Of a stretch of DNA of 64,000 nt, positions 31,801 to 62,845 are shown piece by piece (position 1 is the stretch's first letter; each line of letters starts with the position of its first letter). Below the pieces are notes generated by a model. The model was given only the letters and a program-made list of their open reading frames with translations, was not told the origin of the DNA and did not search any database. Position numbers and translations under genes: made by a program. The stretch comes from Antedon mediterranea. Lineage: Eukaryota > Echinodermata > Crinoidea > Comatulida > Antedonidae. The DNA lies in contig NC_092678.1 of NCBI RefSeq assembly GCF_964355755.1, positions 12,992,922 through 13,056,921 of the forward strand, read 5' to 3'.

Positions 31801-34800
31801 GTAAATGTAGAAATCGGATCATAAAGAAATTAATATATGAGTAAACGAATCGTCAATTATCTTTGCTGTTGTTTTTCTATAATTTTACTTAAATTTGAAA
31901 ATATTTAGTTTTAGTAGTTTATTATTTAGTATTATTTTATTCATAAAAGACAATTGGAAAAGGAGTCATTCATTAGGATTTATGATTTTTTTATTCTAAA
32001 TTTTAAAACGGCGGTTGGTTCACGAATTATTTCGGAAAGAAGATCGTTCTAACACCAAAAGGGTTATTGGTAGAGTTCAATTTTTTTTCAAGATAACAGT
32101 AGTTCATTTCTGATCTGTCTGAGACCTAAGACCCCTCTTACCGCAATTATAAACCTTTAAGCAAGTCTTTATATTATCTACTATGAAAGTAAAACACTTC
32201 TTTAAGTTCTTTCAAAGCTAAGTTAGTCATGTTGTATCCCTTTCACAGACGTGTATCGTATTTCCTCTTTAACCTGTGTTTACACAAAGAATATGTGTAA
32301 TACCGTACTCTATAATGTAACTCTTTTACAGATCAAACCAGAAATCACTAAATTAAATATAAAAAGTTCCGTGACGTCCAGATTTTCTAGCACCACAGTC
32401 ACCAGTGTTTTGATGAATCATGCCGACAACGCAGCGGAAGCTGTTTTCATTTTCACTCTACCAGAGGAAGCGTTCATTGCAAACTTTTCAATGTATGTTA
32501 CTTATAATACGAATAAAATAATAGCTCTTCAAGATGTAGCATAATTTAGGCCTAGTTTAATTCTTAAACCTATAACATGGTTGCCATCACTGTACTTCAA
32601 TACAACATTCGGTAAGACACAGTAATGCAATATACATTTCATGCACATTTAAGTACCTATTATTTTGTCTTTTTATTATTAGTTTTACAGGCACGAAATT
32701 AGAGAAATGTAGTTGGAATTTATACAACCTCGCATCTCTTTCTTATGATACTGTTAAGCATTATTACTGTTATTATTATTAACACATATGTAATCTAATT
32801 TTAAATAACTTTAAACATTTAAGAATTCTTAGTGTTATAATTCAATATTTTAAATATTAGTAATAATAGCAGTGTTATTATTCATTTACAACCACGACAC
32901 TCCTTTCACACAAGTCCCGTTTATCAATATACCATTTCTAATAATATAGTGCCTATCTTTATGTGTCAATGAAACAATAAAGTAGCTAATTAGAATTAGA
33001 AACTAACTAGTTTCTTAACAATAATTTTTTCCAATACATTATTCGTACTTTGTAATAAATGATTCAGATGAAATAAAGTATGATTATAGGCCTATCATTA
33101 TTATTCACATACTTTAGGGAAATAGACGACGTTACATATCCAGCAGAAATAAAAGAGAAAGAAGTAGCTACAAGAATGTATCAAGAAGCCAGGAGTAGAG
33201 GTCAAAGTGTAGCTCAAGTAAAGCAAAAGTAAGCAAAGTCTAAATCAATGGCGAAAAAACTAAAACCTATCTACATTTACAATTGATATATTTTTTATTT
33301 GAATTGTTTCTAAATAGTATAATATATATCTACAGTATGAGAGTATTATTTTATTGTAGATCGGAAAAGAATTTCACCGTATCCGTAAATGTAGCCAAGA
33401 AAAGCTATGTAACGTTTGAACTTATCTACCAAGAGATGCTGAGACGTAAGCGTGGTTATTTTGAGCATCGAACAAGTGTTCACCCGGGCCAGGTTAGGAT
33501 AATTCTTTTTTCTTATAATTAAATGTTGCATTTAATTCATCTCATTACATGATATTTATTCATGAAAATGGAGATTATATAAAACAGTTATGAAGATCCT
33601 ATAGTTTTATTACAAATATACTGTAGATCTATTAACAAAAATTGAAACAATTCAATTATTGAAATAGTTCAATTATTTTTCACTACAGGTCTCTCTCTAA
33701 TTATAGCCACTTTTGGACTCAGCTTTTTAATTTAGTGGTCTTTTGTAATGTCGATTCCCTTCAACTAAACACCGGCGATAAAAGTGTTCTTTAAGTTATC
33801 CTACATAAATGTTTACTTTTTCATATTCATAACTTTCATATCACCATAATGAACCGTTATAGGGAGAACCCATACAAAAGACAAAACAAAACCAAAAACA
33901 TAATATTCTATAATAATATCTTGAAACTTTAAAGATAAAACAAATCATGCTATTTGAAAATAATCGTGGCTTAGGTCAATTTTAAATTTTGATCAGAGGT
34001 GCTCAATCTCAATCTTTATCAAGGTAGAACTTAGCCTATGTAAAGGGCTTCAGAGTCCACTGCATTATTGAGCATTTCAATTATGAAGATAATCTGGAAA
34101 ACATTGTTTGCAAACTGTTACATTAGATTGTAAAGGAAATGAACATACAAATGGTGATTATTGAGGTACAAGGCTTGTTAGAAGTTAATTCTAGTTGGGT
34201 CGAACGTCGCAATAATGGAGACGAAGTAACAAAACACGATGTTGGCGAAATACAGCTTCAAGACAGAAATACCAAAGCTGTATTAAGATATGCACCGACC
34301 ATGGAAGAACAACGTCAGCAATCGAGAGGTGGAATTCACGGAGACTTTGTCATTCGGTACGACGTTGAACACCCAAAAAATGGAGGTGAACTACAGGTAA
34401 AGATACATTTTAATTACGTATGGTTAAAGGAAAAACTTATTGCATTACAAAGTTTTGAAAAATAGTAATTCGCACCTAAATAATTATTTTCACAGTTGAA
34501 ATTATTTAAAGCATTCAGATATATTTCTAAAATAAAATATTATAGTACAAATTCAAATTTACTCTATGAATTTCTTTCATTGCATTTATTATCAATTATA
34601 GTAACTGCACAGAACCAATTTATCAACCGAATACATTTTTATTTATTTATTTGACCAATACACAGATACAGAACAGAAACAAAGCACAAAGATGAGAGGC
34701 AACTAAAGCAAAACAATTACTATAACTCAAATTATTATTATTTTAATAATATATTAAAGAGAATCACATGTCATTTTTCCCAAATTTATTTCTTTCAGAT

Positions 34801-37800
34801 TGTGAATGGTTATTTTGTTCATTACTTTTCTCCTGAAGGCTTACCAGCGGTTCGTAAGAATGTTGTGTTTGTTATTGATGTCAGTGGTTCTATGTCTGGA
34901 CGGAAGCTTCAACAAACCAAGCAAGCTATGTACACGATATTGGATGACTTAAGAGAAATTGACTTCTTCAGTATTGTAACATTTAGCTGTAATATAAGAA
35001 AATGGAAAGATCATCTGAAACAAGCAAGCCCTGACAATATTAGAAGTGGAAAGAACTATATAGAGTCGTTACATGCCAAAGGAAGTGAGAATAATGAACT
35101 ATATATTAATGTAATGATGACGTTTAAAACACATTCATTTGATTCATTTATTTTACTTTGCTTTACTAATAAAATAAAATATAGTTGAGTGTAATTAATA
35201 GGCCCCTAAAAACATAAAAAGAAAAATATTATAACAGTATAAAATTTGAAAACAATTGAGAAGACTCTCATAATAGTAATAAAGAGGTTTTGTCTTTACT
35301 AATAATATTTAACACATTTTGAAAATAAAACAATTATTGATATATTAAAAACAATAACAAAGATTATCTATAAATATGTATATAAAAACAAATTACAAAG
35401 AACCTTCAACAATAAAATTTTAGGTTTACGTTTAATAAGAAGCAGTTATATGTAGTGAACTTTGTGTTGATGAATAGAAGATAATAGTAATAAACACGTA
35501 ATAATACTATGTACTAGAAAAAGTTATTTATATACTGTTAACAAACAATGATCATTTCAATTGTTGAAAGATTATTTTTGTATCTCAATCAATGTTGTAA
35601 GTTAGATAGAGTGCTGAACACTTGTTAAGGAAATGATACAGTAAGCATAACTTTATTTGTTTTACTATTAGTATTTTTTTAGTATCACTAATAGTAATTG
35701 TGTTTCTTTTTTTCAGGAACAAATTTGAATGGTGGTCTTATGGAAGGCATCAGATTACTACGTATTAGTGACAATAGTGGCGTATCTATGGTTGTCATGC
35801 TTACCGATGGCTTACCTACAAATGGAGTGACTTCATTTACAAGAATACAAACCAATATAAAACAAGCAATAAAAGGCAAATATTCTCTATTTAACATTGG
35901 ATTTGGAGATGATGTTGACTATTCATTTATTGAAAAGTTAGCGCTTCGAAACGACGGTCTGGCAAGGAAGATTTACGACGACTCATTTGCAAGCATTCAG
36001 TTGAAAGGATTCTTTGACGAAGTTTCAACTCCACTTCTCCATAACATTGTGTTTAACTACCCAGAAGATTTGATAGAACTTAACAGCGTAACGCAGACAA
36101 CGTTTCCTAATTACTTTCAAGGAACTGAGATTGTTGTAAGTGGAAAATTGAAAGCATCAAACAGCAACGACATTCTTGATGTAACGATTGCAGCAAACTC
36201 TTTAGAATTTCCACTTACAATTCACACAGAGGTGCGTTAGTATTATTTATCATTTATTTGTTATTATTGTTGTATTTACAAACAATTCACCGGTTTCTAT
36301 TGGAACTTTGAAACTGGTTTTTGTATTTTGTTTTATAACAAAGGTCGCGTTACAAGTCATTTCTACACAAATTAAAACTGGTTTGTTGTTTGTGGTTGTT
36401 TAATGGCATTATCATTATTACATGAGATAAGGTCAAGTTTAGACTACGATTACATTGCAGCAAAAGTGTTTTTAATTTAATTGAAATTAATTTAAACGTA
36501 TTTAATTTGACAAGAACATAACTTTGGGCCATTGGATTTAACAATACATTCTGTTGGCATGTACCTTAAATAATTGTTCATATCCTATCATAGGAAAACA
36601 GAGTTTCACATGTATCACTTTGTAACAGACCCTCAACTCTTGGCCTAACCTTACATAATATAGAAACCCCAAGTGAGATACAAAAGATGTTGTACCCGGA
36701 ATTTTTCTATGATACTGGACAAATATAGTGAAATGTTGAGATACAGCACTGAGAATCGGGTGATTAAAAGGCAATACAATATTACGAAAACAAAAAGAAA
36801 CGTACCATAGTTAGGTTATGTCGTACATTGATCAACTCATGTGCACGTGTAATTCTCAAATCGTATAATAATCTCGTAACATACGAGGTGAAATGAAATG
36901 TATGACACAGACACAACGAATAGAATATACTAAACAAATAAACTCTATTCTAATTCTTATCGATTGTGTCGTCAACAGAACTTGTGTATCAATATGCACC
37001 GGGCATCGTCTCTGTTTTTGGCGTATTTCTCATTGTTTTACATGACATGAACAATCCTTTCTTTACCGATTGTCTAGTATTGATAGGCTAATCCAGACAT
37101 AAAATATGGATGCCGCGTACAACGCGACGATTTGCTAGGTCTTAATCTCAATAGAAATTAAAGAGTATAATAAATGTTTTTGTATTACTATTATGACATT
37201 TTTTGAAAGATAATATAAATGCTACATAACATAGCTGATTTATGTTTTATTTCAGCCAAACGAAGAGCTTCTCGGTGAGGATACGGTTGATGATTTTGCT
37301 CAAAGGCTGTGGGCCTACCTGTCGATCAAAGAACTTCTGCAAAAACGAAATATAAGCGACAATCAATCAGAAAGAGATGATCTGAAAGAAAAAGCTTTGA
37401 AACTGTCATTAGAGTATCATTTTGTTACTCCATTAACATCGCTTATTGTTGTAAAGCCAGAAAATGGGAATTCATCTAAAATAACAAAACAACCTCAACA
37501 ACCAATACGTGAGATATGATTTTCGGTTTTACTTTTTGAAAATCTAAAAATTCTTGATATTACTGTTTACTGTCATACAATCATACATGTTTGCTGTGCT
37601 TACTTTCCTACTGGGCCTAAATATATATTACATACAATTAAAAAATATCACCGGTTTAATACTCATTTGGTAAAACATTAATATAATATAATTTGTGAGT
37701 CACTTTTGCCATAAAAAACTTATTGTAATACAATAATGCTTAGCTTTTGCATATCAATATAGACCAAGACATTGCTGCAAATCCTTTGTCATATCCAATC

Positions 37801-41800: not shown

Positions 41801-44800
41801 TCGAGAGATTTATGTAGTTTAACTCTTACCTCGTATTTGGAAACTAATTTGGTTCCGAACTTGTATAGGACATTTTTCCGTCTTCTGTAGTGTGGCAAAA
41901 CTTAAAAAAAAAAATAAATAATTCATGTAAATCAACAATAGTACTTAATACTTTGTTCTGTACAATTATGGTTTACATGAGGTTTTGGAACGGGCTCATC
42001 CGGAAGTTCCATAGTTGGACGCCGTAAGTTTTAAATAGTATCTAAGATAAGAAACATTACAAAGAAAACATGTTTGTACATTTTGCAAACAATTTGTTCG
42101 TAATTTGTTTTGTTAGCCTTCATAAATTAATAATATTTAGAATGTAATACTAATTATTCATTCCTGATAAAAAACAGCAAGTCGACATTTAGACTCATAT
42201 GGCGGTTTTCACCATTTTGTTTACGCCTTGAAAACCAGTTACCTTTATTTTATTTCACGAGGAAATACTTCTTGAAAATAAAGTATCTAAAACATTGAAA
42301 GTAGCAGTTCATATTAGTCATTTACCCTATCTACATATTACGTCTATTTTTATCGTTCTAACAGATAGCTTTTTGCAAGGGCAACGGGATATGTTATATG
42401 GACAACCAAATGTTAGAAGAAGCAGATACCATGAAAAAATTTATAGAGGTAACAGATATTTTCAAGGAACGTTCTGACATTTTAAAATAGTCTATAATGA
42501 TTTGGCATTATACTGAATTCTAAAATAGGCGGAAACAATACAAAAACATTTCTGGAAATATAACAGTCTTATCTGATATCTGAAAGTATTCTTTTATAAT
42601 AATTGTTTTTTAAAACTTAACGAAAAATTATTGGGTTTTCGGAAAGGTAAAAGTCTTTAGTTGGATCTCTAAAAGCTCAAATGGTAAAAACATAACAATT
42701 CACAATTATAAACAATAGGCCCACTATACATATAAAAACAAATGATCCGCGGGCAATTGTAAAAACAAAATACACATTTATCCGCATTATGAAAAAAAAC
42801 ATCAACATTAACATGAGATAAGGTAATACGATATATAAAGCGGACATAATCACAAAGTGCTCAAGGCGCTTGAGAAAACCACGAAAACTGCCAACATTAA
42901 AACTAAAAAACAACAGAAACAATTTGAATAAAAAAATTGGAATAAAAGTAGATCAATCAATGCCACGTCACTGCTTCCGTTTACCGGTAATTTGAGGTGC
43001 ACAGACCTGCTAGAACAGTAAAAGAGAAAACTATTTTGGATATTAAATCAGACATTATTTCAAATCAATTGTCATTGTGACTTCGTGGAGAGCGGACGCG
43101 TTTTGGATTCGCTCCGCTAAGCTGCTAACTCCATGTAAATTGAGCAGCGGGTAATATGAATACCTAAACCTCCACGCCCAGGTGAGGCATGCATGCAATA
43201 GTTACCGAGCACGCTAAACATACTGAAGATACAATTGTACTGAAGGATAACTAATCGAATACAATATGGCAACAAAAACTAGATCAAAAGCGGACAGTGA
43301 AGACAAGTTGGACACAATTATAGGGAAACTAAAGAAACTGGAAATACTCGACGCCATTAACGAAAGGCTTGTCATTTTGGAAGAGGACTTCAAAAACATG
43401 TGGCAGAAGGTTAGGGATATGGAAGCATCCCAAGAATCACTACAGGCTAATTTAGATGAAAAGGCAGACTCGCAGGATATGGAAGTACTACAAAATCGGG
43501 TAGACGAACTGGAAAATAGGCAACGGAGGAACAACATAGTTATTTTTGGCATTCCAGAGCAGTCGGAAGGTAATAACTGTTCAGATTATATTCTAGGATT
43601 CTTTAAAACATACCTGAAAGTGGATAGTAATAGGCCTATGGACATAGAACGAGCTCACCGTACCCCGACATTCCTGCCCACAGGTGGTAAACGAGCCAAG
43701 TATCCGAGGCCAATACATATTGCCTTCAATAAATTCACCGACAAAATTAAAGTAATGAAGGGAGCTGTAAACTTGAAAAACAGTCCCTTTTCTGGAAAAA
43801 AAGTTTGGATAACGGATGACTTTACCCCAAATCTGAGAATAAAGAGGAAGCGGTTGTGGGCCAAACGTAAGAGACTGTTAGAGGAGAAACCCGGCAGAAA
43901 AGTTTTCTTAAATTACCCGGCTGTATTAAGAATTGTAGAAGAAGACGGAAGTTCGAGACTAGTGCAGTAAATCTGTCTGTATAAGGCTGTAATTTAACTT
44001 TAAAAACATAACTCTGTGTCGCTATATGATATATTAATTTATCCAACAATGTACTGATATTGTATGTATGCCTGTTAGGGGTATATCAGTGATGATTGTA
44101 TTGATACTTATCTTTTTTCGCTACTTTTTTCGTTGCTTAAAAAAGAAAATTAGGCTATTATTATATTTGAAGAGAATTTATGTTTCGGGGGTATGGAAGG
44201 GGGAAGGATATACCGGGTTTTTTTATCCTTTGTTGGGTGGGTTTTCTTTGTTTCTCTTTTTTTATTTTATTTTATTTTTACTCTATAACAAAAAAAAACT
44301 GAACACATATGCTAATTTTAACACGAGGTATGATCGAACAATTGGTAATCTGAATACAAAAGTAATACGCATTGCCACAGCACAGGGCTATTTTGGACTG
44401 CGATTACATACAAATTTTACTTTACCTAATGATCTTGGAAAATGTAGTTGCCCACTGATAATTAATAATAAAAATTACTGGATACTTGAGGTTAATACTA
44501 ATTACGACTCTTTCATTTCGGCCGGAACATGGTGTATAGACATTGTTGGGCCCCTTAAAAACTTCAGAAAAAATACTGTTAAAATAAAAGAAAATATAGG
44601 AGAGCAATCAAGTAAACTTATAATCGTCTGTAATAAAAATTTAATTAACATAAAATGCAAATTTTACGAACGTAGTAAAATACAATGCAATAGAATCAGT
44701 CCGTTACTCATCGAAGCTAAAACAATTTTTGGACTGCTATGGTTTATGGTTGTTGCACAAAACAACCATTATGACACCATATATACCCTTGCTTTATTAT

Positions 44801-47800
44801 TTTATCTACCGTTATATATAAACAAAATAAGTAAAAAAATAACAATAAAAAATGTCTAATAATAATAATACGCTATCAATAGTTTCAATGAACTGTCGAG
44901 GTCTAGCAGAAAAATAAAAACGCAGAGATGTGTTACACTATCTAAAGTCAAAAAAATACAATATTATTTGCCTCCAAGATGTACACTTCTCGGCAGAAAC
45001 TGAGTCACTTGTTAGATTGGAGTGGGGCCTTGATTGTTTTTTTAGTTCATATCGTAGTAATGCAAGGGGAGTCGCAATCTTTTTCAATAATAACTTTCCC
45101 TACACTGTTACAAAGCATAAAAAAGATAATGATGGAAATATGTTAGCTTTGGAGGTAAAGGTTGACGATCTAAAATTTACGCTAATCTCAATTTATGGGC
45201 CCAACAACGACACCCCCGGTTTTTACGACAAAATGAGGGAAGTTGTTTTAGAATATGAAAACCCACATAATATCGTTTGCGGCGACTGGAACTGTATTTT
45301 GGACAAAAAATTAGACTGTAAAAATTACCTAAAACTTAATAATCCAAAGGCAAGAGAAAAGATAATAAATATTTGTAGTGAATTTAATCTTACAGATGTT
45401 TGGCGTGTTTACAACCGAGATGAACAAAAGTTTACCTGGAGACAGAATAAATTCAATAAACAAGCCAGGCTTGATTATTTCCTAATCTCATCTGAACTTA
45501 ACAGCAAAATGCTGGATTGTAATATAAAACCAGGTTACCGAACCGATCACTCACTCGTAGATATTAAAATGACGATGAACCAGATAAAATATGGGCCAGG
45601 ATACTGGAAATTTGACAATACCTTATTAAAAGATATTCAATACGTGCAACAAGTTAAAGAAACCATAAATAGAGTCCTAAAACAATATATAGTGCAAAAC
45701 GAAAAAGATAATAAAGATGCTAATAAAGCGCTGTTTAGCATCAGTGATCAACTTCTTTTAGAAATGATATTAATGGAAATTAGAGCAAAAACAATTTCTT
45801 ACGGGGCTTATAAGAAAAAGATTGAAAATAAAAAAGAAAAAGAATTAGAAAGGGAAATAGAAAAAATAACACTTGATATCAATAAGGGCGACGCCACGTT
45901 AAATGGTACACTAGAAATTAAGTCCGGCGAACTTATGAGTATCAGAAAAGTGAAGATGGAAAGAATAATGATGAAAACTAAACTTAAATGGATCGAAGAA
46001 GGCGAAAGGCCGACCAAATTTTTTCTTAATATGGAAAAGAAAAATTTTGTTGATAAAACTATAAATAAAATAGTAAAGGAAAGCAACAATAGTATTCTGC
46101 AAAACACAAATGAAATTCTTGTTGAGTCTAGACAATTTTATAAAAACCTTTATTCCTCAAACCACAATACAGATGATGAAAAAAATATTGTAAAACTTCT
46201 TAAAACTATGAATACATTACCAACATTAACAAAAGAACAACAAAATAAAATTGAAGGGCCAATTACTTATAACGAACTTTTAGTGGCTCTTAAGAGGTCA
46301 CAAAATGGAAAGTCACCTGGTATTGACGGCTTTAGCTATGAGTTTTTTAAGTTCTTTTTTGCGGATTTAGTTTACTATCTTTTGAGAGCTATTAACGAGT
46401 CGTATAACTCAGGTCAACTGTCAACTTCCCAAAAGTCAGGAATAATTACTTTACTCCCTAAGAGGGATAAACCCAGAGAGTATCTAAAAAACTGGAGACC
46501 TATTACCCTGTTAAGTGTCACTTATAAACTTGTTTCGTCATGCATTGCAGAACGAATAAAATCGGTCCTTGATATATTAATTAGTGAACAACAGAAAGGA
46601 TTTATTAATGGGAGATATATAGGCGAAAATACAAGACTTATGTATGATGTTATTCAAATTTGTGAAAAGAAGAAAATCCCTGGTCTGCTTTTACTGATAG
46701 ACTTTGAAAAAGCGTTCGACTGCATTTCTCACACATTTGTTAACTGCGTTCTTAAACATTTTAACTTCGGACAATCCATTCAAAAATGGGTGAAAGTACT
46801 ATATAAAGATGCAAGATCCTCAGTTCTTGTCAATGGCTTTCTCTCCGAATCATTCTTAATCGAAAGAGGATGTAGACAAGGGGATGGGCTGAGTCCATAC
46901 CTGTTTCTTCTGTGCGCAGAAATTTTATCCTCAATGATATCTGAAAATAAACAAATTAAAGGAATATCAATTGCAAATCATGAGTATCGATTATCTCAGT
47001 ATGCGGACGACACTGTATTGTTTCTTGACGGTAAAGAGAAGTCAATGCACGAAGCATTTAAGACTCTCGACGTATTTTCCAAAATTTCCGGGCTAAAAGT
47101 GAATGTGAACAAAACAAATGCTGTCTGGGTTGGCTCTTTTAAAGACCGAGGTGACTCAATATGCGAAAACTATAATATAAAATGGATCAAACATGGAGAA
47201 CCCTTTGAATCATTGGGTATTCGGTTCAGTACAAATTTAAATAAAATGGTAGATTTGAACTATGAAGACGTATATAAATCAATTAAAAATACAATGAGAC
47301 ATTGGTCAAAAAGAAACTTAACTGTTTTGGGAAGAATCACGGTAGTGAAGTCTTTATTACTGTCCAAACTTACCTATATCCTTTCGACATTACCCGATCC
47401 CCCTGAAAATGTAATAAAATCACTTAAGTCAGAACTATATCGTTTCATATGGAAAGGGGTGGATAGAATATCCAGAGATCAACTTATACAAGAAAATAAA
47501 TTTGGAGGCTTACGAATGGTCGATATAAACGCATATATTCAATCGGTAAAAATCACGTGGGTTAGACGGTTAGTAACGTCCAATGAGACGGGATGGGCTC
47601 TTTTAGTTCCACTCGTGTTGAATATTCATAAAACTTGGCTCATAGAAGGCGGATCATCGAAATTAATCAAATTAGCGAAGGTTAAGCCTTACAATGCATT
47701 TTGGCTGGATGTAATAAAGGCGTGGTGCGTATTTGTGAAACACAACACTCCTATGAGCACCGAATCGATATGTAGACAAACACTCTGGATGAATGATAAT

Positions 47801-50800
47801 ATTAAAGTCGGCGGAGAAAGTATCTATTATAAAAACTGGAGTAATCATGGGGTGAATTTTATAAATGATTTAGTTGATAGACATGGAATAACTCCATTAA
47901 AACAACTTAGTAAACGTCATAATCTTAACATCAACTTTCTTCAATATGAAGGCCTAATACATGCGGTCAGACAACATACGTCTTTATATCAAATTTCTCC
48001 AAAAGGAAAAATAAATAGCCCACTACTACCTTTTAACCTTAGCGTAGTAATAAAAAATAAAAAAGGATCAAAGCTAATTTATAATACTCTAATCAACTCT
48101 AGAAAAAAACAATCGAAAGCTAAAATTAAGTGGGAGAAGGCATTGGATACTTTATATGTTGATAAAGAGTGGGAAATTATTAATACCATGTTTTTCTCAC
48201 TTACTATGTCCACACCACTAATCTGGTTTCAATATAAAATTGTGCATAGAATTTTAGGTAATAACTCCTTTTTGTATAAAATTGGGAAAATTGACTCACC
48301 TTTATGTGCTTTATGTAAAGCAGAAACAGAAACCTTAATACATATTTTTGCACAATGCTGTGAAATTAAAATATTTTGGAGAAAGATTAAACAATGGTTG
48401 AAATCATATTTTAATATAAATGTAATTATCAACCCCGAATTATGCCTTTTTGGAGTTAGAAAAAAACCATTTAAAGCCCTAAATACTATTTTACTAATTT
48501 GTCGACACTACATATATAGCTGTAAAATGAGAAAAATTAAGCCCAATATTGTTCGATTCGTGAATGAGATTAAGTTACACGTTAAACAAGAAGAATTTAT
48601 TTTGAAAACCAAAGGGGAGCATCATACTTACTTAAACAAATGGAGTCCTTTCTTGGAAAAACATGAACTTATTGACTGGTAACTTTGCATTAAAAAAAAA
48701 AGGACTTAGTACTGTTTTTTATAATATGTTTTTTAATCCTGAATTATTTATACACTTTTATGATCTGTTTATTTAGTAAGTTATAACTATATATTTGAAT
48801 AAGAAAGTTTTATGTTTAATTAAATTATTTAGTTGAAATATGTTATAAAAAAAAAAATTTGACAACAAATTATTTATAGACTTTGTTTTTAAGAAAAAAG
48901 AAAAAGTAGATTTATATTTATTACATCATGAAATTATTTATAGTTTGTTCTTAAGAGAAATGTATATTATATATTATTATTATTTAAAAAGTGTTATTAT
49001 TTATATTGTGTATTACTATTAATAAGAAAGTGTTATTATTTTAAGCTATTTTTTAAATTTAAATATGAAAGTGTTCAATAAAAAAAAAAAAAAAAAAAAA
49101 AAAAAAAGATTAAAAATATACTTGTTATTTTGCTGTTGATATATAATTATCTTTTAACCTTTTTTTCCTCTTGTTAAAATTACCTTAATGCTTCCTATAT
49201 CCACAAATTTATATTGAGCATTGAGTGCATGCATTATTTTATGGAATTTATTGTTTTGTAGGACTCACATTCTCAGAATTAAAGAAACTTGTATTACTCT
49301 CTGGTAAGTTCAGCAGCTGCACTTTTTGAGATTTCCTTTTCAATCCAACTGTCATAAAAAATTGCATAGGGAGAATATTTTGTATTAGTTTTTCTCATAC
49401 ACTATGCCACAAAATAATGTTTCAACAAATTAAATACCTATGCTTCTAATATACATTTCTATTTTAAAATAAATAAACACATAGGCCTACTGATTAAAAC
49501 ATTTTAGATAAAATTAAATGAAGTTCGAATTAATTATTTTCTTTTAAATGGTAAAATAATTGTTTATTTTCAGCACCAACACCTCATTCAAAATTTAAAA
49601 GAAGTAAGTTTATATTATTATTATTTCATTTAAGATATACAAAGTCAATAGAAAATGTTAGGAAATTGGAGAAAAAAAAATATAAATAATATATTTGAGA
49701 CAATTACATTTATTAAAGTTATTCAAAGAGAAGACATTGCTGTTGATTTATATTGATCATTAAACCTTTTTATTCTCCTGTTAAACTAAACTGCTTCCTT
49801 ATTATCCACACATTGTGCATTGTATTAACATTGCTTTTGCGTTGTTTTTATTCATTTATTCTTTGAGGGCGCACACCCTCACAACACAGATGTACTTTCA
49901 TTAATTAACGTGTTGATATTTCACTAAACCTTTCTCTGTTAAAGTATAATAATATTATTGTACATAATAGGTAGCCAAACGAAAGTGAGATTCAAAAACA
50001 GCCACAGCATTACAACAAGTGGTCATTTTTTGTTGTTTTTTTATCATCCAAATAGAAATTTCGCCATAAATAAGAAAAGAATTTAAGACAAATTTGATTG
50101 ACAAACCACCTAATAATTATGAAAATGTTTCGTTTTTTTTACACTTCCTTTTAAAACAATTCCTTTCAACAAAAATGTTATTCAATAACAGATATTACAT
50201 ATCTATTAGGTTTTTGCATATAACATAATTATTAAATTTGTCATTTGACTCTGCTTCATTACTTAGCTAACAGACAGACAACACAAGCAACTAGTAAGTT
50301 AATCATTTATATTGGGTAATGAGAATAATAAAAATAATGTTATTAGTATTATAAATACATAACGCAACGTATCACGATGATTGTGTATTTGTCTTGAATA
50401 TACATACATGAACATCGTACTCATAACCACCACTAACCACAATGTTAGATTTACTTTGTTTTATAATGTTTTGATAATAATTGACTTTCAGCAACCAGAC
50501 AGACAACTCATGAACCCAGTAAGTTGTTCTATTTTGTATTACATGCAATGTAATACTTTCATGTTATTACAAACATTAATCCAAGAGTTCGTAGTGTTTC
50601 TAACTTGTATAAACAAACATTTTGTAAATATAACTTAATATGCCATTTTTAAAATCTTATAATCATACAATGCTAATTAATTTAAATCATTGACTATCAC
50701 TTCAGCAACTACAATATAGTCCAGCATGAGATTTAGGCAAACATTGGATATGTTGTAGAATAGACATCACTGAATCCAAAAATGATTTGCTCCATTTGTG

Positions 50801-53800: not shown

Positions 53801-55314
53801 CAATTGGAATATTAAAATTGAAAAAAAAAAACAAATTAAATGGATGGATGGACGACCATAAAATCGACATGTCAATTTATTTCCAATGGGGTCCATTGCA
53901 AGAGAAATCGGAGATGTGAAAGTGGACAATAACAATAGTTATCTGCCAAGTGCAGATAATTAAAAAACAAATTGTAAATTAATAAGTCTCCTTTTCAAAG
54001 AAAACACAAACTATGACGATGAATAGGCCTAATATTTCATTGGCGAGTGTGACCATCAATCGCAAAAATGTTAAAGAATTTGATTGTGATAAAACGAACT
54101 TGTGTTCTAACCAACATCAATATCTGTGGTGGTATGTTTTTTGTTAAAGTAAATTATCGAATTATAGCGTGATATGATATAAATTGTATGTTTTTACATT
54201 ATAAATTAAATTAATAAGTTATTATTATTTTTTTTCTTCATTTTTTAGGAATCAATATTTTTGGTAAAATTAGTGTTAAAACTTATTATCAAAATTCAGA
54301 GCACCAGAAACATCCCTTGTTAAGAAAAATAAACTTTGAGTATAGAAATGCAACGATAGTCGTAGCAACGTCATATATGAAAGTGGAAGACGCTGTCCTC
54401 AATTGGCAAGACATTCATTGGCGGGGTGACCAACATTTATCACTAACCGTAAAAAATGACCAAGTTCGGGTAATGATTGGTACAGATATTACCTTGGTTG
54501 TCATACGGTATAGGTATCCACGTGGAAGCTCTAATCAAGTGTATTACTTGGGATTTTATGTTGAAGTTGAAAGAGGTTTCTCCGATGAAGTACATGGCTT
54601 AATTGGTAAGAATTAATGTGTCACTCAGGACGTACGCTAAACGTTTCCGAGACAAGAAATATAAAGGCTGCTATACACTAGGACGTTTGACAATTAAAGA
54701 TAAATAGAAAATATACATTTTTCTTAAACAAACAAAATAAAATTAGAGAATTGTTTTATTCTAGAATTATTTTTATATAAATTATTAAAGCAAAGCAAAA
54801 TACGTCAATAAGAACAATAAATCATTGTATCGCCATGATATTGTTGCTCTTATTATCCTTTTATTGTAATATTATTATTACAAAGACAGCGCAAATGATT
54901 ATCCAAACGTTTTTGTTTGAGGAATTGATACATATGTATCTCGTTACCTTCTTGATAGTATCAAGTGGTGCTTTCGCGTACTTTAAATGATAATAATATA
55001 TTTATATTAATAAAACGCCAATTTTATATATAGAAGTAGGCCTACGTTATCAAACTTTTAATTAACTGTTTGTACTATTGTCATTCATAGGACAATTTTA
55101 TAGCAGAGATCACCGTATAACCCGTGACAAAATATACGCCGATAAATCTACTATCAAAACCACGCTAATTGTGAATTCTCGTCAAGTTCCCGTGACACTG
55201 AAACATGCTGACGAACCTGGGCCTGGTACAAAACAAATTCGTCAGTGCTGGTTTGCAGAAAACAATGGACTGGGCCTAATAGACGGCTTGCACGGAGACT
55301 ACCTGGATGTCTAA
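25741..55314 (+). CDS. Inter-alpha-trypsin inhibitor heavy chain-like protein
   Basis: Secreted ITIH-family protein (in vertebrates, hyaluronan-associated serum and matrix proteins). Coding exons: 25741-25872, 31598-31630, 32332-32492, 33118-33228, 33360-33492, 34127-34396, 34799-35084, 35717-36231, 37256-37508, 38166-38228, 39076-39135, 39268-39375, 39978-40019, 40305-40334, 41079-41102, 41298-41324, 41490-41516, 41982-42023, 42365-42448, 49262-49303, 49574-49603, 50267-50293, 50492-50518, 52989-53102, 54249-54605, 55091-55314. All are GT-AG and the phases join to 1,073 codons plus stop. Residues 1-25 are a signal peptide (LVLVLISSWLV); ~56-190 VIT domain; ~300-480 vWA with intact MIDAS (DVSGSMS at 307-313); 631-842 low-complexity linker; ~845-1073 ITIH C-terminal domain. 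I do not see the DPHF motif where vertebrate heavy chains are cleaved and bound to chondroitin sulphate, so it may be closer to ITIH4/ITIH5 in use. A tandem paralogue starts near 63770. Confidence 0.93.
26161..30699 (+). mobile_element. 4.5-kb DNA transposon with ~130-bp terminal inverted repeats
   Basis: Left end CCCACCACTAATTGCAAAAG, right end CTTTTGCAATTAGTGGTGGG. The inverted repeats continue for about 130 bp (26161-26292 against 30568-30699). TGA directly flanks both ends (26158-26160, 30700-30702) as a 3-bp target-site duplication. The subterminal regions carry several copies of the palindrome CTAATTTGCATAATATGC. The interior codes for a frame-shifted protein (27159-29580). Inserted in the large intron after the ITIH signal-peptide exon, same orientation as the gene. 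Confidence 0.85.
27159..29580 (+). pseudogene. Transposon-encoded protein, broken by frameshifts
   Basis: The reading runs through three or more frames: 27159-27590, 27565-28910, 28911-29330 and 29340-29560. Recognisable blocks are FDQPLWWKA, LRLGGLHMEMSFLGYIG, GKAISRAVRGHLLVDAAL, VIRRSDRYWAGLSTDL with SGGLTRGRSMTE, VFDGYEDGPAIKDATHCR, DADILIV, and FVHALLGCDTTSRVFG. I know this block order from multi-copy genes of marine invertebrates and fish. Frame changes lie near 27590, in a run of C at 28907-28916, and near 29330, where a GDD-DLLILL motif is split. The D-rich carboxy half resembles a PIN/FEN-type nuclease fold, by inference only. There is no DDE triad I can point to. Non-functional copy. 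Confidence 0.75.
32332..34396 (+). CDS. ITIH-like VIT domain exons
   Basis: Exons 32332-32492, 33118-33228, 33360-33492 and 34127-34396. The peptide has the family pattern: VTSVLMNHADNAAEAVF, FIANFSMEIDDVTYPAEIKE, TFELIYQEMLRRKRGYFEHR, then IVKEMNIQMVIIEVQG and DFVIRYDVEH. The third exon is joined in phase 2, the fourth in phase 0, which agrees with vertebrate ITIH alignments I know. Confidence 0.93.
34799..36231 (+). CDS. ITIH-like von Willebrand A domain exons
   Basis: Exons 34799-35084 and 35717-36231 joined in phase 1. MIDAS motif DVSGSMS, then the threonine region (GRTNLNGGL across the junction) and the aspartate of MLTDGLPT complete a metal-binding site. Followed by YSLFNIGFGDDVDYSFIEKL. 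Reading past the donor at 35084 gives a spurious ORF tail that is intronic. Confidence 0.93.
37256..37508 (+). CDS. ITIH-like post-vWA exon
   Basis: Codes for FAQRLWAYLSIKELLQKR and LSLEYHFVTPLTSLIVVKP, the conserved segment that follows the vWA domain in ITIH proteins. After it the sequence becomes low-complexity (KITKQPQQPI) and the linker exons begin. Confidence 0.92.
38819..38878. repeat. (TA)n microsatellite
   Basis: About 30 uninterrupted TA units in an intron of the ITIH-like gene. Confidence 0.97.
39076..41516 (+). CDS. ITIH-like linker block A, seven small phase-1 exons
   Basis: Exons 39076-39135, 39268-39375, 39978-40019, 40305-40334, 41079-41102, 41298-41324 and 41490-41516 (24-108 nt). 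Each starts and ends in phase 1, so any one can be skipped without breaking frame. The second codes a Gly/Tyr/Arg-rich segment (PPWGGYYGRQPYGRRGFYG). The last four code short Thr/Pro/Lys units such as TTRPTKAI, TTIPTTQET and TTRKPAYKT. Every donor is GTAAGT-like or GTACGT, which supports real use despite the small size. Confidence 0.85.
41570..41637. repeat. (CAA)n/(CAG) interrupted microsatellite
   Basis: CAACAA and CAGCAA units, intronic, between the last exon of linker block A and the first of block B. Confidence 0.9.
41982..50518 (+). CDS. ITIH-like linker block B, duplicated copy of block A
   Basis: Exons 41982-42023, 42365-42448, 49262-49303, 49574-49603, 50267-50293 and 50492-50518 match block A exons 1-6 in order, size class and phase. 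Introns match too (for example TTCATGTAAA before the first exon, GGCGG-AA-AATAC after the second, and CTCTTGTTAAA before the third). The unit offset is about 2.9 kb. The LINE was inserted later between exons 2 and 3. The counterpart of the seventh exon, near 50706, is decayed. Confidence 0.85.
42680..42905 (-). mobile_element. SINE/LINE tail fragment
   Basis: The minus strand contains CAAGCGCCTTGAGCACTTTG, TTATGTCCGCTTTATATATC and GTATTACC, a 3' tail type common in tRNA-SINEs and partner LINEs of marine invertebrates. No head with box A/B is visible. It is adjacent to the LINE at 43000-49107 and partly defines its 5' limit. Confidence 0.45.
43266..43970 (+). CDS. LINE ORF1 protein (L1 ORF1p-like)
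   Basis: 234 residues. N-terminal half is a heptad-rich coiled coil (about 12-90: KLDTIIGKLKKLEILDAINE to LQNRVDELENRQ). Next comes RRNNIVIFGIPEQ, the hallmark start of the L1 ORF1p RRM domain. RAHRTP, RPIHIAFNKF and GKKVWITDDFTPNLR follow, as in the RRM and C-terminal domain. ORF1p binds LINE RNA as a trimeric chaperone. No zinc knuckles. Intact reading frame with an ATG in good context. Confidence 0.9.
   Translation: MATKTRSKADSEDKLDTIIGKLKKLEILDAINERLVILEEDFKNMWQKVRDMEASQESLQANLDEKADSQDMEVLQNRVDELENRQRRNNIVIFGIPEQSEGNNCSDYILGFFKTYLKVDSNRPMDIERAHRTPTFLPTGGKRAKYPRPIHIAFNKFTDKIKVMKGAVNLKNSPFSGKKVWITDDFTPNLRIKRKRLWAKRKRLLEEKPGRKVFLNYPAVLRIVEEDGSSRLVQ
44068..44859 (+). CDS. Extra LINE ORF, predicted membrane protein
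   Basis: 263 codons open between ORF1 and ORF2 in AT-rich DNA, where a chance frame of this length is unlikely. Hydrophobic segments: residues ~8-22 (VMIVLILIFFRYFF), ~51-72 (inside a T-rich tract, FSLFLFFYFILFLLY), and ~219-254 (GLLWFMVV and LALLFYLPLYI). The 140 residues between are polar, with cysteines (KCSCP, GTWCIDIVG, IVCNK, KIQCN) and an N-F-T sequon. The stop lies within ATGTCTAA, so it overlaps the ORF2 ATG (44852) by 8 nt, which would suit termination-reinitiation. I recognise no domain family. The first 75 residues could be a by-product of the T-rich tract, but the middle is not low-complexity. Confidence 0.5.
   Translation: MPVRGISVMIVLILIFFRYFFRCLKKKIRLLLYLKRIYVSGVWKGEGYTGFFYPLLGGFSLFLFFYFILFLLYNKKKLNTYANFNTRYDRTIGNLNTKVIRIATAQGYFGLRLHTNFTLPNDLGKCSCPLIINNKNYWILEVNTNYDSFISAGTWCIDIVGPLKNFRKNTVKIKENIGEQSSKLIIVCNKNLINIKCKFYERSKIQCNRISPLLIEAKTIFGLLWFMVVAQNNHYDTIYTLALLFYLPLYINKISKKITIKNV
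44852..48682 (+). pseudogene. LINE ORF2 (endonuclease-reverse transcriptase), one nonsense codon
   Basis: Starts at ATG 44852 with SIVSMNCRGLAEK, then has a TAA at 44915-44917; past it the frame is open for 1,250 codons (44930-48682). The APE-type endonuclease has LQDVHFS (Asp where many have Glu), IYGPN, GDWNCIL, RLDYFLIS and RTDHSLVD. The reverse transcriptase has GKSPGIDGF, LLPK, NWRPITLL, QQKGFINGRY, DFEKAFDC, GCRQGDGLSPYLF, YADD (47000-47011) and a thumb with LTVLGRI. The end has a CCHC-like finger CALCKAETETL-H-IFAQC. This fits the L1/Tx1 clade. With one stop codon it is inactive or only partly translated, by downstream initiation or readthrough. Confidence 0.92.
50706..50736 (+). pseudogene. 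Decayed microexon (seventh exon of linker block B)
   Basis: After a good acceptor (TATCACTTCAG) the sequence CAACTACAATATAGTCCAGC corresponds to CAACCAGAAAGCCAGC of exon 41490-41516, but it has an in-frame TAG and no GT donor in the right place. It was therefore left out of the gene model. Confidence 0.75.
50746..52736. mobile_element. Composite foldback element with captured RT-tail fragment
   Basis: Outer ends GGATATGTTGTAGAATAGAC and its inverted counterpart (52700-52736), extended by ATCACTGAATCCAAAAA. Further copies of the same end lie at ~51130-51168 (inverted), 51358 (direct), 51775 (direct) and 52335-52375 (inverted). The element thus contains several units. AAAATGGC-GCCAT stretches recur (51240, 51640, 52440). 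At 51958-52188 a coding relic reads LRYKDVIKRDL, SWENLASNRTSCRSK and RFRSIRHQQSS, the usual carboxy tail seen after LINE reverse transcriptases. Partial copies of this relic are at 50870-50960 and 51500-51570. A run of C lies at 51069-51092. Intron of the ITIH-like gene, just after linker block B. Confidence 0.75.
52989..55314 (+). CDS. ITIH C-terminal domain exons
   Basis: Exons 52989-53102, 54249-54605 and 55091-55314, joined in phase 1. The peptide has the family features YVCFNIEG-PGDVYSLIQD, GKISVKTYYQ, a long beta-rich segment, and LIGQFYSR near the end, closing with CWFAENNGLGLIDGLHGDYL and a TAA stop. A polyadenylation signal candidate AATAAA lies at 55392. Confidence 0.92.
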
Positions 55315-55894: not shown

Positions 55895-58800
55895 ACAACA
55901 AGTTTTTAATAAAAGTTGAAGGTTGACGTTGTAGCGTGTAGACGTGTGTCGCTGAGCTATCTGCAAGACACCTCTATTTTCCTTATTTTCGTTGTTTAAC
56001 TTGTTGATGTGTCTTATTTAGCGATTACTAAGTGTTGCTTGTTGGTTTAGATGATATTTTGATGAATTTTGATGGATTTTTGTGCTTGTACGTTCATAAT
56101 TTAGCCGTTTTTGTGCTTGTCGCCGGTTTGGTCTTGTTTTTTTTTTTTTGGACACGGCACGGTACGCAATGACAAAGGAACTGCATATACAGGTGGAGGT
56201 AAACAATAGACCGGCTTGTATGCATACCGGTAGCGATTCTCGGCCTAGAAAACGACCAAGAAGGAAACGCGGAGGTGTTAAGCTAAGAAGGAAAATTGAT
56301 ACAAGGGTAACTTTTCGTTCAGTAGGAAATAAGGTGACCCAAGGTCGTAATATTGGAAATTTGATCCCATGCATCACAGGGGATTTAGTTGCACCGACAA
56401 TTATGTATACGAATGCGTGGTCATTAAAGAATAAAGCAGACGAATTTCACTGTACCTTAAAGAAACATAATGTAGATGTAGCGATAGTCACTGAGACATG
56501 GCTAACAGAGGAAACACAAGGTATTGTTAACTTTTGCGATTATAAAGGCGTTTTTAAAAACAGAACTGATAAAATCGGCGGTGGCGTAGCATGCTTTGCA
56601 GCGGACCACCTGGAAATCCATCCGATTGTTACGCATACTGATTGCAAATTCGAATGCCTATGGTCAAAAATTAGCTATCGCTCTACACAGAACAGCAAAA
56701 CGCGTTCTATATATATCGGAGCTATTTACTACCCGCCGTCTGCCAACTACCCCAACCAACTTTTAGAGCATGTTGGAAATGTAATTGATAGTATTTATGG
56801 AATGGATAGATTGGCAAATATCATAGTACTTGGTGACTTCAACCATCTAAACACTACCTATATGCAATCTGAATTAGGTATGGAACAAATGATTGATTTT
56901 CCTACCCATAGGAAAAATAACATACTTGATAAAGTGTTCATGAATCGACCGGAGAGATACAGTAAAGCCACTAAGTTGGCCCCCTTAGGACGTAGCGACC
57001 ATTGTTGTATACTATTGAAACCAATCCATGTTATACCTACCTCTAACTACACCACTTGTACTATCCAACCGTATCGTAACTCGTCGGTTAGATCATTTGG
57101 ATCGTGGATCACTGCCCATGACTAGTGCCATGTTCTTGATAGCGAATCAACAAGTGTTAAAACAAATGAATTTCTTACTGTGCTTAATGGGAAATTTGCA
57201 GATTTTTTTCCCCGTGAAATCGATTTGCCATAAGAAAACCGATAAGCCGTGGATGACGCCGAGAATCAAGAGATTGATTGTAGAACGACAGTTGGCCTTT
57301 TCTAGTAACCATACCCAACAATGGCGAAGGATACGTAACTCCATACAAAGAGCAATTACGCACGCGAAGGAGAAGTTTTACGCGACCTCATTAAAGTGTC
57401 TAAAAAGCAATAGCCCTGCTAGATGGCACAAAGGAATTGTGAATCTCTGCAATCTAAAGAAAAAGGACACGTTTAACATCCCTGGTCTATCAACGCAAGT
57501 GGCTGTTGAAGTAATTAACCAACATTTTGCCACGATTTGTAGTGAACTTTCAGCACTTCACATTACAAAACTACCAAGTTACTTACCAGCATCGGAACCC
57601 CCACCCGTTATCTACCCAGGACAAGTGAAATCTGCAATCGATAAGTTAAACATACAAAAAGCAGGACACCCAGAAGATCTACCGATCAGATTAATTAAGG
57701 AATTCTCATTTGAACTCTCTTATCCATTAGCGGACATTTTTAATTCTTCTTTAAATGAAGGTAATTTTCCTGAACAATGGAAAAAGGCTACTATAATACC
57801 AGTTCCTAAGGTTCCAGATGCTAATAATTGTAATGACCTTCGGCCTATATCCCTAACACCCATTTTTTCTCGGATATTTGAAAGCTTTTTAGCGGAGTGG
57901 GTAACTAATGATATAAAAGATTCTTTAGATAGTAAGCAATTTGGTTGTCGTAGAGGCTCGTCAACTTCACACTACCTCGTAGACTTGATAAATTCTATTG
58001 TATCTGACCTGGAGGGGGGTAGCAAATATTTAAACTTATGTGCTGTAGACTTTACGAAGGCTTTCGATCGTGTGGATCATAATGTTGTCATAAATAAATT
58101 AATATCCATAGGAGTGAGGCCGTCCATTCTTCCTACCGTTTGTAGTTTCCTCTTAAATCGCACATGCAATACCAAAGTTAAGGGAGCCACCTCTTCAAAT
58201 TCTAATATTACTTGTGGGGTGCCCCAGGGCACGAAGTTGGGTCCCCTTCTCTTTTTGGTATTAGTCAATGATGTTGCTGAGGGAACTGACAGGCGGTAGA
58301 AATATGTGGACGACCTCACTCTTAGTGAAGTAGTTAGAAGTAGTGATAGCCAATTGTTGCAGGACACTTTAAATCAACTTGATGATTGGTGTTTGATAAA
58401 TAGAGTCCTCCCCAAGCCATCCAAGTGCAATGTGATGCGTATTTCCTTCCTAAAGTCCGACTGTCCTCCTCCCAGTTTCAATCTAAATGGCCATGATCTT
58501 AAATGTGTAAATCACATTAAACTGCTTGGTGTCACCTTGCAGGATAACCTTAAATGGGAGATGCATATTCATGATATCGTTGCTAAAGCATGTCGACGTT
58601 TGTACACTTTGATTATACTTAAGAAAGCCAAGGCGCCTTGTAAAGATTTACTACAAGTATATACTTGCTATATACGTCCTTTAGTTGAATATGCATGCCC
58701 TGTGTGGCACAGTTCAATTACGAAAGACCAAACTAAGTCAATAGAAAGAGTTCAAAAAAGAGCTCTACGAATCATTTATGGCATGAACTATGTATCCTAC

Positions 58801-59240
58801 GAGTCTGCTCTTCCATCGCTAGTTAACAGAAGAGTCCAACTCTTACTGAAATTTGGTAAAGGAATAATAAAGTCCGATACATTTAGAAGCATTCTTCCAC
58901 CTGTTCGTGACATTAGCAGAACCCTGAGGTCTGCGAGTAAGCCTCTACTCAAAATCCCGTTTGGTCGTACAGAAAGATTTAGATCTTCACCAGTCCCTTT
59001 TTTAGTCCAACTCATTAATGATGAATATTGAATAGGCTGGCACTATTTTAACTTACAGGTGGACCAATTTTAATGTGGTAAATTATTATTATTATTATTT
59101 TTTTTTTTTTTAAACTAGTTTTACCTTTTATACATAATGTATTTATATATTTTTATCAAATTTTGTAAAATACTACTTTTCAGCCTTTTGGCTGCCGTTG
59201 TATTTTGATGTCTTTTTATGAATAAATATACCTAAATGAA
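55895..59240 (+). mobile_element. CR1-type LINE, nearly full length, inactivated
   Basis: 5' UTR from about 55895, ORF2-like frame 56148-59031 with three lesions, and a 3' UTR ending in CTTTTCAGCCTTTTGGCTGC and TGAATAAATATACC, as in CR1 elements. The 3' UTR also has (ATT)n and a T-run near 59085-59112. No ORF1 is visible upstream. Same orientation as the ITIH genes and placed between them. Confidence 0.85.
56148..59031 (+). pseudogene. CR1 endonuclease-reverse transcriptase, three lesions
   Basis: Segment 1 (56148-57120): basic start (RPRKRPRRKR), then endonuclease with YTNAWSLKNKADEF, VTETWL, GGGVACF, GAIYYPPS, VLGDFNH and GRSDHCC. A TAG at 57123-57125 and a one-base shift in the T/C run near 57205-57215 separate it from segment 2 (57211-58299). 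That one has DKPWMTPRIK, FPEQWKKATIIPVPK, NDLRPISLTPI, QFGCRRGSSTSHYLV, DFTKAFDRVDHN and GVPQGTKLGPLLF. A TAG at 58297-58299 precedes segment 3 (58300-59031), which starts KYVDDLTL (active site YVDD) and ends with the CR1-type LLGVTLQDNLKWEMHI, YIRPLVEYACPVWH and RVQKRALRIIYG. Inactive copy. Confidence 0.88.
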
Positions 59241-61187: not shown

Positions 61188-62845
61188 TGCAAGGTGAACT
61201 CATCGTGAACGCGGAAATTACTTTGACCGCGTAGAATTGAAATTGAGTTGAAAATCTACCGTTGAAATCATAAATTTTGTTAAAAACTCTTTATAATATC
61301 TTCCTAAGATAGAAATATGGAACAATATCGTAATAGTGAAAACTAATGTATCAAATTTACATTTCACGGTACATCTGAGATAGATCAGGTAGGTATCCAA
61401 GGCGGAGATTACATCTGAGATAGATCAGGTAGGTATCCAAGGCGGAGATTACATCTGAGATAGATCAGGTAGGTATCCAAGGCACAGATTACATCTGAGA
61501 TAGATCAGGTAGGTATCCAAGGCAGAGATTACATCTGAGATAGATCAGGTAGGTATCCAAGGCAGAGATTACATCGGAGATAGATCAGGTAGGTATCCAA
61601 GGCAGAGATTACATCTGAGATAGATCAGGTAGGTATCCAAGGCAGAGATTACATCTGAGATAGATCAGGTAGGTATCCAAGGCAGAGATTACATCTGAGA
61701 TAGATCAGGTAGGTATCCAAGGCAGAGATTACATCTGAGATAGATCAGGTAGGTATCCAAGGCAGAGATTACATCTGAGATAGATCAGGTAGGTATCCAA
61801 GGCAGAGATTACATCTGAGATAGATCAGGTAGGTATCCAAGGCAGAGATTACATCTGAGATAGATCAGGTAGGTATCCAAGGCAGAGATTACATCTGAGA
61901 TAGATCAGGTAGGTATCCAAGGCAGAGATTACATCTGAGATAGATCAGGTAGGTATCCAAGGCAGAGATTACATCTGAGATAGATCAGGTAGGTATCCAA
62001 GGCAGAGATTACATCTGAGATAGATCAGGTAGGTATCCAAGGCAGAGATTACATCTGAGATAGATCAGGTAGGTATCCAAGGCAGAGATTACATCTGAGA
62101 TAGATCAGGTAGGTATCCAAGGCAGAGATCAGGTAGGTATCCAAGGCAGAGATTACATCTGAGATAGATCAGGTAGGTATCCAAGGCAGAGATTACATCT
62201 GAGATAGATCAGGTAGGTATCCAAGGCAGAGATCAGGTAGGTATCCAAGGCAGAGATTACATCTGAGATAGATCAGGTAGGTATCCAAGGCAGAGATTAC
62301 ATCTGAGATAGATCAGGTAGGTATCCAAGGCAGAGATTACATCTGAGATAGATCAGGTAGGTATCCAAGGCAGAGATCAGGTAGGTATCCAAGGCAGAGA
62401 TTACATCTGAGATAGATCAGGTAGGTATCCAAGGCAGAGATTACATCTGAGATAGATCAGGTAGGTATCCAAGGCAGAGATTACATCTGAGATAGATCAG
62501 GTAGGTATCCAAGGCAGAGATCAGGTAGGTATCCAAGGCAGAGATTACATCTGAGATAGATCAGGTAGGTATCCAAGGCACAGATTACATCTGAGATAGA
62601 TCAGGTAGGTATCCAAGGCAGAGATTGAGATAGATCAGGTAGGTATCAAAGGCACAGATTACATCTGAGATAGATCAGGTAGGTATCCAAGGCAGAGATT
62701 ACATCTGAGATAGATCAGGTAGGTATCAAAGGCACAGATTACATCTGAGATAGATCAGGTAGGTATCCAAGGCAGAGATTTGTACCAAAGTTGTTCCATT
62801 GTGCTCGCCTATGTCAGAATTAACCATAATTTATAAATAGATGCG
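61188..62845. mobile_element. Element of the 2839-3112 family, swollen by a minisatellite
   Basis: Left part (61188-61370: TGCAAGGTGAACTC, GGAACAATATCGTAATAGTG) and right part (62781-62845: TGTGCTCGCCTATGTCAGAA, TTAACCATAATTTATAAATA) match the single-copy element in order and spacing. The 40-bp core between them is expanded to an array of about 1.4 kb. Confidence 0.85.
61371..62780. repeat. 40-bp minisatellite, about 35 units
   Basis: Unit ACATCTGAGATAGATCAGGT followed by AGGTATCCAAGGCAGAGATT. The first ~18 units are nearly identical. From ~62125 on, shortened units of 24 bp occur, lacking the 16 bases from TTACATC to ATAGA and joined at a shared AGAT; there are at least four. Variants with CACAGATT occur at 61485 and again near 62580-62750. 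Not coding: no frame stays open. Confidence 0.97.

Follow-up and report, generated by a model that had tools for sequence, protein, structure and literature searches.

A 64,000-nucleotide stretch of Antedon mediterranea DNA (the window; contig C9, 12992922-13056921) contains an L1-type long interspersed nuclear element (LINE) with a third open reading frame (ORF), named ORFx here, between ORF1 and ORF2. It is well supported that ORFx is a genuine third ORF. We consider it somewhat probable that this is a recently active L1-type LINE with a three-cistron RNA, in which ORFx would encode a lineage-specific protein, most likely membrane-anchored, that is reached by reinitiation and coupled to ORF2. 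The basis of this reading is an open frame beyond chance, its retention in a young subfamily and one older copy, an overlap with ORF2, and a synonymous excess among the shared substitutions. From these observations we infer translation, coupling, membrane location and function of ORFx.

ORFx (44068..44859, plus strand) has 263 codons from its first ATG. It lies in the 881-bp gap from the ORF1 stop to the ORF2 ATG (43971..44851, plus strand), and its stop overlaps the ORF2 start by 8 nt (ATGTCTAA, 44852..44859, plus strand). An earlier note on this DNA had described a 263-codon frame filling the gap with an 8-nt overlap with the ORF2 ATG, which is what was found. The longest open stretch in the gap reaches 273 codons, versus a mean of 57 and a maximum of 126 in 2000 dinucleotide shuffles of the tested stretch (43971-44860, 70.6% AT). 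When the shuffling was kept within 60-bp composition blocks, the maximum was 167 codons, and the observed length was reached in 0/2000 shuffles under either null. A Gumbel fit for the open-stretch length gave p of about 1e-9, and a chance origin was therefore rejected. The antisense mirror frame of ORFx contains 17 stops and the other two sense frames contain 20 and 28.

Copies of the LINE were searched for in the genome (354 Mb, 18 contigs). When ORFx was compared with the genome by tblastn (E<=10), 20 rows were obtained, 14 of which, at 10 loci, are copies of this LINE. ORFx is open end to end at five of the ten loci (the window, L002, L003, L004 and L005), and in L010 it is 5'-truncated yet open. 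L006 is the one complete copy of an older subfamily, with 14 substitutions in 792 bases. ORFx is broken in three older copies, by a large insertion in L007 and by indels in L008 and L009, and each of these copies also carries indels in its ORF2. The earlier note had proposed to check whether other copies carry stops or frameshifts in this frame as often as in noncoding parts; on running this check, frame-breaking changes were confined to the three copies whose ORF2 is also damaged. An insertion of 1 nt in L006 brings in a stop three codons past the first ATG, and the frame is open from codon 4 onward. Since L006 is open only downstream of this stop and Met9 (44092) has a G at -3, Met9 is the likelier working start, which would give a product of 255 residues, or else the insertion is a small defect of that copy.

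The whole LINE copy spans 43069..49107 (plus strand). Its 5' boundary is placed within about 5 nt from the sister-copy matches, which begin at 43064 (L004), 43067 (L002) and 43069 (L006), and its 3' end is a 28-A tail (49080..49107, plus strand). No target-site duplication was obvious by eye, no dedicated search having been made. ORF1 (43266..43970, plus strand, 234 residues) is open and matches LINE-1 ORF1p (2ykp/2yko) with an E-value of about 1.4e-4 over residues 76-226 by phmmer, and a Pfam scan of ORF1 gave no family above its cut-off. ORF2 (44852..48682, plus strand) encodes an endonuclease-reverse transcriptase. It matches PF00078 (E=9.9e-34) and PF03372 (E=1.1e-5) in Pfam and, among the PDB sequences compared, LINE-1 ORF2p (E=2.5e-87 across query residues 3-873). 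The intact ORF1 and the ORF2 with a single nonsense codon that the earlier note had read from the sequence are both borne out, and the codon (TAA, 44915-44917) is private to the window copy: position 44916 is different in 9/9 other ORFx-bearing copies, and a sense codon stands at this site in the five copies read letter by letter (L002, L003, L004, L005 and L010). The element shares with LINE-1 and other L1-type LINEs the endonuclease and reverse transcriptase (RT) in ORF2, the LINE-1-like ORF1p, the A tail and the 5'-truncated copies (L003, L010). Mammalian L1 has two sense ORFs. This arrangement, with a short gap between the ORFs, is not shared: the inter-ORF spacer of mammalian L1 is 63 nt in the part of PMC5972666 that was covered, whereas 881 bp and a third sense ORF are found here.

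Substitutions were counted from pairwise BLAST alignments, because a whole-family MAFFT alignment misplaced parts of L007 and L011. A substitution found in two or more copies was taken as shared (active lineage) and one found in a single copy as private (mostly post-insertion), and the synonymous to nonsynonymous (S:N) expectations were scaled from the observed mutation spectrum. For ORF2 the region 44860-46498 was counted, with two changes at the private stop codon set aside. The shared substitutions of ORFx were 6S:5N (omega-like ratio 0.31, P=0.05), and those of ORF2 were 11S:7N (0.22, P=0.0014). Reading the 11 shared ORFx sites in either other frame gave 3S:8N, so the synonymous excess is present in frame 0 only. 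The private substitutions were 5S:20N for ORFx (omega-like ratio 1.49) and 6S:38N for ORF2 (2.15), as expected of dead copies, and 6S:6N for ORF1 (0.37). Of the 36 ORFx substitutions, 4.7% (about 1.7) would be expected to create a stop, and none did. These results fit, on small counts, an ORFx that behaves like ORF2, constrained in the lineage and free in dead copies, and ORFx looks mildly protected by selection.

Gaps of other LINEs in the genome were measured from the last ORF1 stop of a locus to the ORF2 ATG, and several ORF1s end early by decay. Among loci with a LINE-1-like ORF1, a long gap was present in 7/7 (6 families), ranging from 173 to 1777 bp. Besides the window (881 bp), the lengths were 671 bp in L026, 476 and 480 bp in L020 and L019 (one family), 1157 bp in L044, 1777 bp in L012, where an antisense LINE fragment is by eye part of the gap, and 173 bp in the decayed L043. 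Loci with a CCHC-type ORF1 had a gap of 88-120 bp in 7/7, some of them of one family; this ORF1 type was assigned by eye, some ORF1s are fragments, and L031 was placed by the likeness of its ORF1 end to that of L030. Left out were loci with no readable ORF1-ORF2 pair (L011, L013-L018, L021, L022, L027, L034-L037, L039, L040, L042 and L045), further copies of counted families (L041, L046-L049 and the short pieces L050-L060), and loci whose ORF2 is of another type (L023-L025).

Open frames were found in several of these gaps. L026, of another family, has a 156-codon frame whose length was reached in 0/2000 shuffles (p 1.6e-5), with the same 8-nt overlap geometry with ORF2 (ATGGATAA). L041, a second copy of the L026 family, keeps most of the frame with a frameshift near its end, and its ORF1 and ORF2 are also broken. 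L043, of a family whose RT is close to that of the window family (57%), has a 103-codon open stretch reaching ORF2 in its 173-bp gap and ending in the same 8-nt geometry (ATGACTGA); a single copy of this stretch was found, which is decayed and may have lost a longer ORFx. The L020 frame has 94 codons; its open length was reached in 2/2000 dinucleotide and 21/2000 block shuffles, and its length from an ATG in 10/2000. In L012 a 189-codon open stretch, reached in 0/1000 shuffles, stops short of ORF2.

Some loci met in this survey stand apart. In L023, L024 and L025 the ORF1 is LINE-1-like, but the ORF2 behind it matches L1 ORF2 weakly or not at all and by eye resembles that of another LINE clade, so this ORF1 type may be common to different LINE clades. 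At C6:1950400 an L1-type RT match lies within a 2322-codon open frame, longer than the other ORF2 frames; this may be an artefact, with 89 N near L040. A 16,073-codon frame was rejected as an artefact crossing an N run (297 N in 1301 bases).

At the junction, the overlap of the ORFx stop and the ORF2 start has the geometry of stop-start coupling. Downstream of the ORF1 stop there are 18 ATGs as far as ORF2, whose own ATG is among them. This would make it hard for ribosomes to reach ORF2 by ordinary scanning, and ORFx therefore probably delivers ribosomes to it. In the parts of the sources covered, the SART1 LINE is reported to start its ORF2 by stop-start coupling, and reinitiation is proposed for L1 (PMC2881922, PMC5972666). 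In the mechanism that we propose, the LINE RNA would hold three cistrons: ORF1 for the LINE-1-like ORF1p, ORFx, and ORF2 for the endonuclease-RT. Ribosomes would reach ORFx after ORF1 through reinitiation over 97-121 nt and would pass from ORFx to ORF2 at the 8-nt overlap, where stop and start would be coupled. ORFx would then have a double role, as a gene and as the way to ORF2. Its protein of about 255-263 residues would have an N-terminal basic-hydrophobic anchor, a polar domain containing cysteines and a hydrophobic C-terminal part, and would most likely act as a tether between a cell membrane and either the LINE RNA/ORF1p particle or the synthesis of ORF2.

It is possible, though we doubt it, that ORFx is kept open only to carry ribosomes across the long gap to the ORF2 start and that its peptide is idle. 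The 18 ATGs counted above would suit this explanation, as scanning through an untranslated gap would be hard, and the 8-nt stop-start overlap recurs in three families (window, L026 and L043) whose gap frames show no clear common sequence (window versus L026 compared). However, an idle peptide predicts equal scaled synonymous and nonsynonymous rates, and the shared ORFx changes depart from this at the P value given above. A short gap like that of the CCHC-type loci would also serve the transport of ribosomes just as well. If the amino-acid constraint is confirmed, ORFx also makes a needed protein.

As to the membrane, hydrophobic segments were taken by Kyte-Doolittle hydropathy with a 19-residue window and a threshold of 1.6. 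Three were found in ORFx, at residues 1-26, 50-74 and 212-231, together with seven cysteines and one sequon (NFT at 116). The terminal segments around a cysteine-bearing polar part with a sequon, which the earlier note had described, are thus present. Its doubt about the T-rich residues 51-73 was also right, as the hydrophobic character of segment 50-74 holds in each of the three frames, and that of segments 1-26 and 212-231 in the ORF frame only. If translated, the ORFx product would very probably meet a membrane, and by its sequence it is plausibly a membrane protein. In the earlier note's proposal of a LINE with a membrane protein, the third ORF is supported, and the membrane part stays at plausible, given hydrophobicity at the level of composition and a poor structural model.

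Several results weigh against a selected gene for a membrane protein. When random frames were assembled from triplets of the gap itself, they carried a mean of 2.15 hydrophobic segments, and three or more occur with P=0.34; the seven cysteines compare with 9.7 expected from composition. Because composition alone gives as much, hydrophobicity cannot be used as evidence of a selected membrane plan. The AlphaFold2 model of ORFx is poor, with a predicted local distance difference test (pLDDT) score of 42.8 (three near-identical rows). The L026 gap frame, modelled from its single sequence at a pLDDT of 52.1, has an N-terminal segment that fails the hydropathy threshold. The RNA fold at the overlap is not unusual (z = -0.23 for 44852-44980 and 0.52 around the site), with a z of -1.51 upstream at 44700-44840. 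Four C9 copies and the C6 copy are near-identical, so their openness is uninformative, and the openness of young copies alone says little. The earlier note had asked whether synonymous and nonsynonymous changes are equally frequent: the shared ones are unequal once scaled, at P of only 0.05, and the selection signal rests on these 11 changes. One of them, at 44578, is found in L005 and L008 only and is probably recurrent, and the comparison of shared with private ORFx changes gave a Fisher P of 0.056. Applied to ORF1, the shared-substitution test gives no signal (0S:2N), so that it has little power. Subfamily changes in the gaps of the L020 and L044 families show no third-position excess. Relatives of ORFx were found neither in Pfam, PDB, PHROGs and its own genome nor in IMG/VR and prokaryote genomes, the last two by pattern scans that reach close relatives only.

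The ORFx model itself shows seven strands flanked on either side by helices, and was too weak to be used as evidence; like that of the L026 frame, its pLDDT is below what a fold search would need. In PHROGs two weak rows (E 0.014 and 0.071) were taken as chance. By eye, ORFx (residues about 185-197) and the L026 frame looked alike. This similarity is borderline only: its score was reached by 37-81/1000 shuffles, a result that also weighs against the gene, and homology is for this reason not claimed. The L020 frame did no worse (75-91/1000), and for other gap pieces the score was reached in 103-109 (L048), 715-842 (L012) and 917-927 (L044) of 1000 shuffles.

A wider reading, which we think unlikely, is that a whole lineage of L1-type LINEs, those found here with a LINE-1-like ORF1, has an ancestral, very fast-evolving third gene of env-like plan, membrane-anchored, cysteine-bearing and possibly glycosylated, which can no longer be aligned between families, is open in the window and in L026, and is left as relics in L044 and L012. 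The recurrent third gene is a lead and not a result, because the gap frames align at most borderline with ORFx and the subfamily changes in the L020 and L044 gaps have no third-position excess. In the 94-codon frame of the L020 family, four changes are by eye common to L046 and L058 and absent from L019, three of them at codon position 1 and one at position 2; L046 and L058 also have a 3-nt insertion in common. The gap of the L044 family has 53 diagnostic sites with no clear phase.

The L044 family, an old one, was looked at by eye. In the 1157-bp gap, L044 and its copies L047-L049 have broken frames whose start resembles a signal peptide and which also show several sequons and, C-terminally, a hydrophobic stretch. 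Many gap fragments of this family (84-93% identity) are clustered in 0.8 Mb of C9 (17.04-17.84 Mb), as if by segmental duplication, and three diverged pieces lie at C3:35.43 Mb with roughly even spacing (about 2.1-2.2 kb).

That this LINE family recently acquired a host or viral membrane-protein gene is quite improbable. In its favour, no alignable counterpart was found among the sister families looked at, and the parts of the literature covered record LINE captures, namely a helicase in TRAS (PMC5563155) and extra ORFs recruited by L2 elements (PMC7140322). Against a capture, the tblastn search of the genome found only copies of the LINE and six further rows with internal stops (E 0.09-0.96), and the database searches, which took in no eukaryotic collections, gave no match beyond the two weak PHROGs rows, although they could miss a source that is rich in introns or evolves fast. 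A chance open frame in a non-coding spacer, with hydrophobicity as a by-product of T-rich DNA, is least probable of all: the segments and the cysteine count match composition and most of the intact copies have had too little time to gather stops, but 273 open codons in 71% AT DNA exceed every shuffle of both nulls and the synonymous excess is confined to frame 0.

Around the LINE, the segments 34655-36237 and 54218-54613 (plus strand) are host exons of an inter-alpha-trypsin-inhibitor-heavy-chain-like gene, with the domains VWA (PF13768, E=2.7e-10) and ITI_HC_C (PF06668, E=1.6e-13). The LINE lies between them in the same orientation, probably within an intron. A second LINE occupies 56100-59028 (plus strand), with an endonuclease-like match (PF14529, below cut-off) and an RT (PF00078, E=1e-16) in separate frames, and a minisatellite of about 37 copies of a 40-bp unit lies at 61370-62780.

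Known elements resemble parts of this arrangement. SART1 from silkworm also couples the ORF2 start to the stop of the preceding ORF, as UAAUG, in the covered parts of PMC2881922 and PMC5972666; there, however, ORF1 itself meets ORF2, whereas here an extra ORF does so, overlapping by 8 nt, and a search for RNA structure downstream found none. For ZfL2-1, a LINE with an esterase ORF1p, membrane binding of the LINE protein is proposed (PMC3905857, in part), but its esterase domain lies inside ORF1p, unlike the separate frame here, which has hydrophobic segments and no domain recognisable in Pfam. Among the literature covered, the nearest printed plan to ORFx is ORF3 of the Vesta4 long terminal repeat (LTR) retrotransposon of bdelloid rotifers, which in the passages covered of PMC5408684 has 220-230 residues, no known homologue, two hydrophobic regions and cysteines between them; unlike ORFx, it belongs to an LTR element and is added to gag and pol. 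No LINE in which a third ORF separates ORF1 from ORF2 was found described in the open-licence literature searched, in titles and abstract openings or in the covered passages of PMC11203168, PMC2881922, PMC5972666, PMC3905857, PMC3849965, PMC3212995, PMC5408684, PMC5006619 and PMC7140322. The covered part of PMC3849965 has a shrimp non-LTR sequence with numbered ORF3 to ORF6, which may or may not lie between ORF1 and ORF2.

On the best reading, the element is of L1 type but deviates from the plan of two ORFs, and ORFx is a lineage-specific third gene. To our knowledge, LINEs are taken as purely intracellular ribonucleoprotein particles with one or two proteins. If the reading is true, the presence of a third gene in a LINE, especially one whose product is anchored in a membrane, would allow tests of the link between LINE particles and membranes that is proposed in the covered part of PMC3905857. 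It would also bear on the movement of LINEs between cells or species, and would give the study of reinitiation after long ORFs an animal mRNA that naturally has three cistrons.

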